Assembly: GCA_014382375.1 (NCBI GenBank)
Contig: JACNJU010000043.1
Location: 1 to 44,318 of the forward strand
DNA from: Rhodospirillaceae bacterium
Lineage (GTDB): Bacteria > Pseudomonadota > Alphaproteobacteria > Rhodospirillales > JABHCV01
Length of the DNA stretch: 44,318 nt
Reading direction: 5' to 3'
Shown here: positions 36,994 through 38,904 of the stretch, in pieces
Layout: every line of letters starts with the position of its first letter
How positions within the stretch are numbered: the stretch's first letter is position 1
Notes under the pieces: generated by a model
The model's database searches: none
The model's input: the letters and a program-made list of their open reading frames with translations, nothing else
What the model was told of the DNA's origin: nothing
Program-made: the position numbers and the translations under genes

Positions 36994-38040
36994 CTATCTC
37001 TTAAAAAACTGACGCCCAAACCAGTACCAACGACCATCCTTGGCGGGCAGGGTGCAGTTTATCCGGGTGCGGCCTCGCGGCAGGACTTTTTGCATTCTGA
37101 TTTCAATGCGCGTCTGCCCGCCCTCCCCTTCAAGGCGCGAAACATCAAGCTTACCTTCGTGAGAGCCAAAACAGGACAACTGGCTGAGGCTTTTTGTCAG
37201 GGCCTCATCGCCGTTAAGGGTGAAGCCAAAGGCTGGTGGATTGTCGTCACCAGCGTCAATAAACGGGTCGCTCGGAGTGACGTCGACCACGTTCAGGGCA
37301 AGGGCATTTGCGGCCAGCCGGAAACGTTTCATATCACCGTAGGCTTCATTCAGGGCAAAGCGCGGCAGATAATACAGATTCGGGGTTTTGGCGGCGACGC
37401 CCGAATGCTGGCCAAGCCCGGCCTTAAAGCCGGTTGAGCGGACCAACTCGATGACCCGGTCACTGGCTTCACCATAAGGATAGGCAATGAAGGCCGGTTT
37501 TGCGCCAAGCTCTTTCTTGAAGCGCTCGTTGGATTTATCCAGATCGCGGCGATTGGCGAGAACACTGGAGCTCGCCATATGCAGGTGGGAAGCGGTCTGG
37601 CTGCCGATGCCGGCGCCGCCTCGTTGCAACTCACGGATTTGATCCCACGACATGTAACCGCGAATGCCCCGGTCGACAGGATCGGTGGCGACAAACAGCG
37701 TAAAAGGAAAGCCCAGCGCCTTGAAGCGCGGCCAGGCTTTCTCATATACGGACAGGTAGGCATCATCGATGGTGATGGCAACAGCTTTATCGGGAAGCTC
37801 CTGACCATCGCGCAGGGCCTTGATAATATCGGCCAGCGCCATCACCTGATAGCCACCGGATTTTAATTCCTCAAGATGGGCCTCGAACTGGGCGATCTTG
37901 ATGGAGGTTGTCGGGAAATCACCCTCACCAAAACGGTGATACATAAAGATAACGGCCGAATTGCCGGCATGGGCCGGAAGCGGCACGGCGGACAAGACAA
38001 GTACAATGACAAAAAGAACGGACAGAATATGTCGCAGCAC
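36994..38040 (-). CDS. Secreted polysaccharide deacetylase-family protein (NodB-like)
   Basis: This 348-residue protein starts with GTG, which has AAGGGG six bases upstream. A signal peptide follows (LRHILSVLFVIVLVLSAVPL, cleavage after AHA). The longer ATG reading at 38094 would begin inside the repeat element and place 18 charged residues before the signal, so it was rejected. The NodB-like domain has VIFMYHRFGEGDF, AVAITIDDAYLSVYEKAWPR with the Asp-Asp pair (92-93), and GIGSQTASHLHM. In the last motif the usual first metal-binding His of HxxxH is Gln148, with His152 kept. FIAYPYGEAS and a C-terminal strand-rich extension of about 90 residues follow. It probably acts on a periplasmic or cell-wall glycan; activity is uncertain because of the Gln. 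Confidence 0.82.
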   Translation of the reverse strand: MLRHILSVLFVIVLVLSAVPLPAHAGNSAVIFMYHRFGEGDFPTTSIKIAQFEAHLEELKSGGYQVMALADIIKALRDGQELPDKAVAITIDDAYLSVYEKAWPRFKALGFPFTLFVATDPVDRGIRGYMSWDQIRELQRGGAGIGSQTASHLHMASSSVLANRRDLDKSNERFKKELGAKPAFIAYPYGEASDRVIELVRSTGFKAGLGQHSGVAAKTPNLYYLPRFALNEAYGDMKRFRLAANALALNVVDVTPSDPFIDAGDDNPPAFGFTLNGDEALTKSLSQLSCFGSHEGKLDVSRLEGEGGQTRIEIRMQKVLPRGRTRINCTLPAKDGRWYWFGRQFFKR

Positions 38041-38084: not shown

Positions 38085-38292
38085 TTAATACCAAATTGCG
38101 CTAATAATGACCCATAGAGACGGCTTCACAAGGCTTTTGGCAAGGAGCGCTCGGCGCGGCGATGCGTGCGCAAGACGGGCGCAACGCCGTTCAAAAGCCT
38201 TAACGGTGCACCGCATCGCCAGCGGCTTTCCTCCTACTCGACGAACTGCGTAAGCGATCTCTATGGGTTATTATTAATGCAACTTGGTATAA
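38085..38292. mobile_element. MITE-like non-coding element with 35-bp terminal inverted repeats
   Basis: The left arm at 38085-38120 and the right arm at 38258-38292 are inverted copies: TTAATACCAAATTGCG..CCCATAGAGA against TTATACCAAGTTGCAT..CCCATAGAGA, with only a few differences. TAA stands directly outside both TACCAA...TTGGTA ends and may be a 3-bp target duplication. The interior has two further perfect inverted repeats, AAGGCTTTTG (38130) with CAAAAGCCTT (38192), and GGCGATGCG (38158) with CGCATCGCC (38212). These are interleaved rather than nested. There is no open frame of note. It fills most of the 279-bp gap between the deacetylase and nitroreductase genes. Confidence 0.75.
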
Positions 38293-38293
38293 T
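38285..38293 (+). promoter_or_regulatory. Extended -10 promoter at the right end of the MITE-like element
   Basis: TGG-TATAAT is a perfect extended -10 (TGnTATAAT). TTGGTA comes from the element end and TAAT from the flank. It is 26 bp before the nitroreductase ATG; no good -35 lies upstream, as is normal for extended -10 promoters. The left end has the counterpart TGGTATTAA facing the deacetylase gene (minus strand, plus 38085-38093). Confidence 0.5.
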
Positions 38294-38319: not shown

Positions 38320-38904
38320 ATGAAAGCCGATGATGTGACACTCGACCTGTTGTTTAACAAGGCCCGGACCAGAAACGGCTGGACCGACCAGCCGCTGCCT
38401 GAGGGGATGCTCGAGGATATCTGGAATCTGACCCGCATGGCCCCGACCAGCGCCAACTGCTCACCGGCCCGCATTGTTTTTGTGACCAGTGACGCGGCCA
38501 AGGAAAAACTGCGACCAGCCTTGATGGGCGGCAATGTGGACAAGGTGATGGCGGCTCCGGCAACGGCTATTATTGGCTACGATTTGGAATTTTATGAACA
38601 TCTGGGGAAGTTGTTTCCGCACACGGACGCGCGCGCCTGGTTCGCCGGTAATGACGAACTGATCCAGACCACCGCCTTTCGTAACGGCACCTTGCAAGGC
38701 GCTTATTTTATGATGGCAGCCAGGGCTCTGGGGCTTGATTGCGGACCCCTGTCGGGTTTTGACAACGCCATAGTTGATGCGGATTTCTTTGCAGACACGA
38801 CAGTTAAGTCGAATTTTATTTGTTCCATCGGCTACGGCAACGATGACAACCTGTTTGGACGCAGTCCCCGCTTCAGTTTTGATGAGGCCTGTCGGGTTGA
38901 ATAA
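38320..38904 (+). CDS. Nitroreductase-family protein, RutE-like (malonic semialdehyde reductase-like)
   Basis: This 194-residue FMN-dependent nitroreductase-fold protein is closely similar along its whole length to E. coli RutE, which reduces malonic semialdehyde to 3-hydroxypropionate in pyrimidine breakdown. Shared blocks are ARTRNGWTDQPLPE, PTSANCSPARIVFVTS, LRPALMGGNVDKVMAAPATA, FPHTDARAWFAGN, TAFRNGTLQGAYFMMAARAL and GPLSGFDNAIVDADFF. No other rut gene lies nearby, so it may instead be a general aldehyde or quinone reductase. Its promoter seems to come from the end of the repeat element 26 bp upstream. It converges on the DdpX-like gene with a 6-bp gap. Confidence 0.88.
   Translation: MKADDVTLDLLFNKARTRNGWTDQPLPEGMLEDIWNLTRMAPTSANCSPARIVFVTSDAAKEKLRPALMGGNVDKVMAAPATAIIGYDLEFYEHLGKLFPHTDARAWFAGNDELIQTTAFRNGTLQGAYFMMAARALGLDCGPLSGFDNAIVDADFFADTTVKSNFICSIGYGNDDNLFGRSPRFSFDEACRVE

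Follow-up and report, generated by a model that had tools for sequence, protein, structure and literature searches.

A MITE insertion that completes an extended −10-like motif before a nitroreductase-family gene, and a hairpin core found between several kinds of terminal repeat

Several described mobile elements carry promoters that point outwards from their ends. The Correia repeat enclosed elements of Neisseria are MITEs, the first of them 204 bp long, and their sigma-70-like promoters can drive adjacent genes; the review that describes them covers other MITE promoters as well (PMC10969869). MITEAba12 of the Moraxellaceae is likewise short and non-autonomous, with outward sigma-70 promoters predicted at both ends and transcripts from one (PMC6382973). 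In Paracoccus, work with trap plasmids describes insertion sequences in which outward promoters at the element's ends, or hybrid promoters across them, drive the neighbouring gene (PMC3281130). Finally, the GTAG and CGTC families of REP, BIME and REPIN sequences consist of paired inverted hairpins, some of which lie inside longer palindromes (PMC3733652).

The element described here, found in a 44,318-bp stretch of DNA from a Rhodospirillaceae bacterium (the window), resembles each of these in part, as far as the cited sections of those papers go. Its size is about that of the Correia element, but the promoters there were tested experimentally, whereas those here are sequence motifs; the Correia elements also have other terminal repeats and another host, and they differ from the family described here, which shows no preference for gene starts. 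In MITEAba12 the predicted −35 and −10 both lie inside the element, whereas the window element has no −35 and its −10 is completed by the target. The Paracoccus insertion sequences are autonomous, and their hybrid promoters combine a −35 of the element with a −10 of the target, whereas here the −10 comes mostly from the tip. REPs measure 20–40 bp, whereas the hairpin arms here are ~95–100 nt long, lie inside terminal repeats and show no link to a Y1 transposase.

The reading we favour, at a probability of about 0.75, is that the window contains a MITE copy with an internal deletion, from a family of TACCAA/TTGGTA-tipped DNA transposons that are non-autonomous and mobilized in trans with a 3-bp TNA target duplication, and that the promoter is a by-product. 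A transposase supplied in trans would move the element and duplicate the 3-bp TNA target. At the level of the bases, the right tip, the TAA and the T that follows write TGG-TATAAT, from which the nitroreductase gene would gain an extended −10 promoter and a ~20-nt leader.

Several features mark the element as mobile (Table 1). A TAA adjoins both tips, TACCAA on the left and TTGGTA on the right. The preliminary description had reported a MITE-like element with 35-bp terminal repeats ending in TTGGTA; the repeats are present, and a repeat search gives them 39 nt at 85% complementarity. The MITE-like character is supported by its mobility, inverted repeats, target duplication and dispersed copies, and from a short length without a transposase gene; no ORF of at least 100 aa in the window's ORF list falls inside it. 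Relative to its family, the window copy is without ~60 nt of interior, and the joint falls within AAAAGCCTT, a word close to one present in both arms of relatives. A single strand of the window element folds far more strongly than shuffled sequences do (z = −9.5). The window gave no match to Rfam covariance models at gathering scores, and two further loci (L050 and L054) gave none up to E = 1.

Table 1. Features at and around the element, in positions of the window
Feature	Position	Strand	Basis
MITE copy, 201 bp	38089..38289		tips (TACCAA from 38089, TTGGTA to 38289) and length; interior deleted relative to the 261-bp family
Left terminal inverted repeat	38088..38126	+	repeat search; 39 nt, 85% complementary to right
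Right terminal inverted repeat	38252..38290	-	repeat search; 39 nt, 85% complementary to left
Left TAA, target duplication copy	38086..38088		TAA single in the empty site
Right TAA, target duplication copy	38290..38292		TAA single in the empty site
TGG-TATAAT, outward extended -10-like motif	38285..38293	+	TGGTATAAT; last base from the flank
TGG-TATTAA, outward -10-like motif	38085..38093	-	TGGTATTA at 38086-38093; hexamer 38085-38090
Nitroreductase-family gene	38320..38904	+	PF00881; ATG 38320
Polysaccharide deacetylase gene	36994..38040	-	PF01522; GTG start 38040-38038 chosen; mechanical ORF start 38094

The insertion itself can be read from a sister species (G001), in which both neighbours are present (proteins 91% and 90% identical) and the element is absent. 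The empty site there is GTAATGGTTAATGCAAAGC; the window has GTAATGGTTAA, then the element, then TAATGCAAAGC. Because TAA occurs once in the empty site and twice around the element, the target duplication is the 3-bp TAA, which settles an initial proposal of TA or TAA in favour of the latter. Side by side, the two loci show a recent, precise insertion in this lineage that is absent from the sister species. The element entered a divergent intergenic gap of ~71 bp, and where the empty site has GTTAAT the window has TATAAT, at an equal distance from the gene. With only 30 bp between tip and ATG, an ordinary promoter of the nitroreductase gene would now have to lie at the tip or within the element. 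On the other side, the GTG start of the deacetylase gene was chosen from an AAGGGG 6 nt upstream and from the start of the homologue in the sister species.

The right-end motif is as the preliminary description had it, a perfect extended −10-like TGG-TATAAT, with TGN directly before the hexamer (TGGTATAAT), and the spacings agree as well, 26 nt from TATAAT to the nitroreductase ATG and 44 nt from the left-end motif to the deacetylase GTG. The left-end TGG-TATTAA also lies where it was placed, facing the deacetylase gene, but its hexamer matches TATAAT at only 4/6 positions. In the 44,318 bases of the window, TGNTATAAT occurs once, at the right tip, against an expectation of 0.45; as at least one occurrence arises in 34 of 100 shuffles of the window, a lone site is not rare in itself, and it is the place at the tip that stands out. 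A simple sigma-70 scan that required both a −35 and a −10 called neither end of the element; its one match nearby runs on the minus strand from 38298 to 38270 (expected 0.5). The same kind of scan found one promoter-like site at the sister locus, on the minus strand on the deacetylase side (expected 0.4), which is uninformative about an older promoter. The right-end motif is a plausible promoter of the nitroreductase gene, although this putative promoter has no −35 and may be silent; the left end would be at most a weak one.

How general such motifs are can be judged from 81 distinct full-length copies, 80 of them readable on both sides, whose 160 ends come from related copies. Tip and target site together write TGGTATNA, pointing outwards, at almost all ends. 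TNA adjoins the tip at 77/80 left ends and 72/80 right ends, and 52 of the 80 copies have the same 3 bp on both flanks; the target of Correia elements, by comparison, is TA. The base after TNA is G at 47% of left and 59% of right ends and T at 17% and 11%, respectively. Because that base is mostly G, TATAAT is scarce: three hexamers are perfect, 69 match at 5/6, 84 at 4/6 and 4 at 3/6, and the best −35 at spacers of 15–19 reaches 3/6 matches or fewer in 159 of the 160 ends. It had been proposed that each insertion would automatically create promoters out of both ends. An outward TGGTATNA does arise nearly always, but TATAAT only at 3/160 ends; by the test set beforehand, further copies whose ends do not complete a −10 box, the general claim is not supported, with the right end in the window unaffected.

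Nor do ends that face gene starts differ from those that face gene 3' ends, as oriented by mechanical gene calls (ORFs of at least 70 aa). For genes within 200 bp, the mean hexamer score is 4.45 at start-facing ends (n = 60) and 4.46 at 3'-end-facing ends (n = 52); T stands at the last hexamer position in 10/60 and 9/52, and TATAAT at one and two ends, respectively. In the band from 15 to 80 bp, T is last in 5/34 start-facing and 7/42 comparison ends, and the other distance bands agree that start-facing ends are no better. An element selected for delivering promoters, because both ends drive neighbours wherever it inserts, was the strong form of the initial proposal. Such an element would account for TGGTATNA at nearly every end and for the perfect, well-placed right-end motif in the window, and it has precedents in Correia elements and MITEAba12 as far as the cited accounts describe them. 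We nevertheless consider it very improbable, given how few ends carry TATAAT, a favoured target that places G last, start-facing ends that score no better, and core-bearing elements with other terminal repeats, described below, that do not end in TTGGTA. We infer instead that the promoter motif is a by-product of tip and target site rather than the element's purpose, its creation following from the end and target preferences of the transposase. We conclude that it is by chance that the −10-like motif of the window's right end is perfect and lies in a good position. A selected promoter role may exist at a few sites and is conceivable, as the comparison rested on mechanical gene calls and related copies.

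The same mechanical ORFs point to a different feature of the insertion sites. Gene 3' ends are faced by 66 ends, and at 29 of these the ORF stops at one of three fixed places, namely in the duplicated TNA (11), 16 bp inside the element (11) or 29 bp inside it (7). Among the 80 copies, the element thus seems often to have inserted at a stop codon or close to one.

The family to which the window copy belongs is ~261 bp long (exactly 261 bp in 59 of 80 full-length copies) and occurs in Rhodospirillales-like bacteria. Copies are found at three places in the genome of origin. Ten of 60 relatives have matches, as do 10 of 240 genomes sampled from the class; both counts include the genome of origin, and in the latter at most three candidates were scored per genome. 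A pattern scan of public genomes returned at least 119 stretches, several per MAG. Among the matches listed are Proteobacteria, Alphaproteobacteria, Rhodospirillales, Rhodospirillaceae and Kiloniellaceae MAGs and one Treponema; the Treponema record (L127), missing from the listed profile matches, was taken as chance. End matches to a short pattern number 90 in one genome (G037) and 42 in another (G018). Plasmids and phages gave no match, viral contigs gave no exact pattern match, and in the open-access literature we recognised no description of a TACCAA/TTGGTA family.

Individual copies vary in setting and in form. One in the genome of origin (contig C103) has a TATAAT end and sits between two gene 3' ends. 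Another is common to that genome (C134; L010, 1080–1345) and the sister species (C48; L038), between sdhE-like and recG-like genes, names that come from reading the translations. Its duplicated target overlaps the recG start codon, which leaves the TATTAT there without room for a leader. In G018, 10 of 16 picked places are solo ends, nearly identical over ~20–37 bp and followed by unrelated sequence, as if one-ended remnants (L204, L207, L209, L210, L211, L214, L215, L216, L217 and L218). A minimal copy of 55 bp (L223, 2105–2159) has two ends, almost no interior and TNA on both sides, and some MAGs have an end fragment of 56 bp immediately before a further copy, or two partial copies in tandem (L135, 1717–1842; L161, 2325–2648; L164, 1245–1664).

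The family also has a conserved hairpin interior. Of 21 diverse copies that were aligned, 17 belong to the main kind and four have other ends; the alignment shows a terminal stem and two arms, with pairing in 95.5% of cells. Both sides have changed in 78 of 102 pairs, and covariation is strong, at 0.512, whereas shuffles give 0.179 and slid partners no more than 0.106. Such double changes are expected in the terminal repeats of any transposon, but not in the arms. Template-switch correction between the arms of a palindrome could yield double changes without selection. The two arms share one motif in inverted orientation, approximately YTAGGAG, stem, GGCGATGCnnnGCATCG..AAG, stem, CGACGCC. Arm I folds better on the plus strand in 18 of 21 copies (p = 0.0002) and arm II on the minus strand in 20 of 21 (p = 3e-6), p-values that overstate the significance because the rows are related. 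An apparent wobble asymmetry, which first suggested this strand preference, had G-U far in excess of A-C in arm I and A-C in excess in arm II, but was not relied on: it depends on the strand folded (Fisher 0.003 with the plus structure, 0.015 with the minus structure), and over pairs common to both structures it gives 0.095 for the 21 sequences and 0.26 for the 80 copies. As the wobble count is strand-dependent, the folding energies of both strands were used instead.

These properties could be those of a structured RNA or mRNA-processing element that the host keeps at each site, its mobile look being secondary. The strong fold, the double changes and covariation, and the greater stability of each arm on its own sense strand would all suit such an element. 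However, the target duplication is clean and the empty site exists, Rfam gave no match, and the shared insertion between recG and sdhE is losing its pairing. The two versions of that insertion differ at 18 of 261 positions; seven pairs are broken only in the genome of origin and one only in the sister species, three survived a one-sided change and none was kept by a double change. Loss of pairing makes a function for the host at this locus less likely and is consistent with a role in propagation, and we regard a host-kept RNA as very improbable. For the favoured transposon, the terminal repeats and the two-hairpin core would be what selection keeps, as parts needed for propagation.

The least probable of the explanations weighed is an element of REP or REPIN type, whose single-stranded hairpins would be the substrate of a mobilizing Y1 (RAYT-type) transposase. 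Its inverted hairpins with YTAGGAG and CGACGCC do recall the GTAG- and CGTC-tagged REP dimers, as far as the cited sections describe them (PMC3733652), and in each arm it is the sense strand that folds better. Against this, six of ten element-bearing genomes gave no Y1_Tnp match (G001, G018, G037, G041, G163 and G253; the other four did), and these six include G018 and G037, which carry the most copies. Moreover, a 3-bp target duplication points to a DDE-type transposase.

The target rules of the IS5 family offer one comparison, the IS1031 group using TNA and the IS427 group TA. The 3-bp TNA duplication of the former is likewise seen here, but none of the transposase loci searched is bounded by such ends. 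A search for an autonomous partner through PF13586, PF01609 and PF13358, at 42 loci in eight genomes, gave no TACCAA/TTGGTA pair, in MAGs that break at repeats. IS5-type domains occur in several of these genomes (PF13586 in three of eight, PF01609 in seven), and none of their 32 loci has such a pair. Across 196 loci, seven TACCAA/TTGGTA pairs are separated by 0.6–4 kb and have TNA next to each end; from their weak arms alone, these were judged to be MITE-to-MITE pairs or chance rather than autonomous elements. In a well-assembled genome (G033), the only exact end matches come from its one MITE, and the other 15 carry two or three mismatches.

The core is not confined to TACCAA/TTGGTA elements. 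It is found between ends that start with GTGTGGTG, GTACTCCC / GTACCC / GTACTCAC, GCACCCACTATC, GGAGCCTGTCCGAG or TACCAA and, as one arm only, beside ends that start with GAGCATATTCGG; besides TACCAA, the kinds of terminal repeat around it thus number five or more, and the total length hardly varies. Core-only matches have profile scores from 47.8 to 97.9 bits, and one-armed L303, at 12.8 bits, is doubtful. Among 12 two-armed elements with other ends, four of which are also in the 21-copy alignment, 11 measure 259–265 bp and one 282 bp, and folding is better on the own sense strand for arm I in 11/12 and for arm II in 12/12. Of the 12 elements without TACCAA, eight have TA on both sides and four on the right only, so that TA-centred flanks, as in the IS427 group, are met in most of them. 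Other families of the class also hold the core, with different terminal repeats and TA-flanked targets (L289–L291 in G163, L294, L302 and L303); the ends of L302 we take to be IS5-like. Both TA and TNA targets would suit transposases of IS5 type (IS427, IS1031) or IS630 type.

Tentatively, and as a suggestion that falls a little short of even odds, these elements may form a superfamily of short alphaproteobacterial mobile elements, with one core, at least six exchanged kinds of terminal repeat and lengths mostly of 259–265 bp. Its hairpins would be conserved in single-stranded form, as RNA or single-stranded DNA, each on its own sense strand, and the core would be the lasting unit that perhaps aids whichever transposase is available. 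This modular hairpin core is more surprising than the promoter. The window and the sister species nonetheless form a natural before-and-after pair, so that the birth of a promoter from a MITE tip is directly testable. MITEs are usually regarded as elements whose ends alone count; a conserved core that stays in position and constant in length amid changing terminal repeats turns this view around, and it poses the testable question of what role the core has in transposition or as an RNA.
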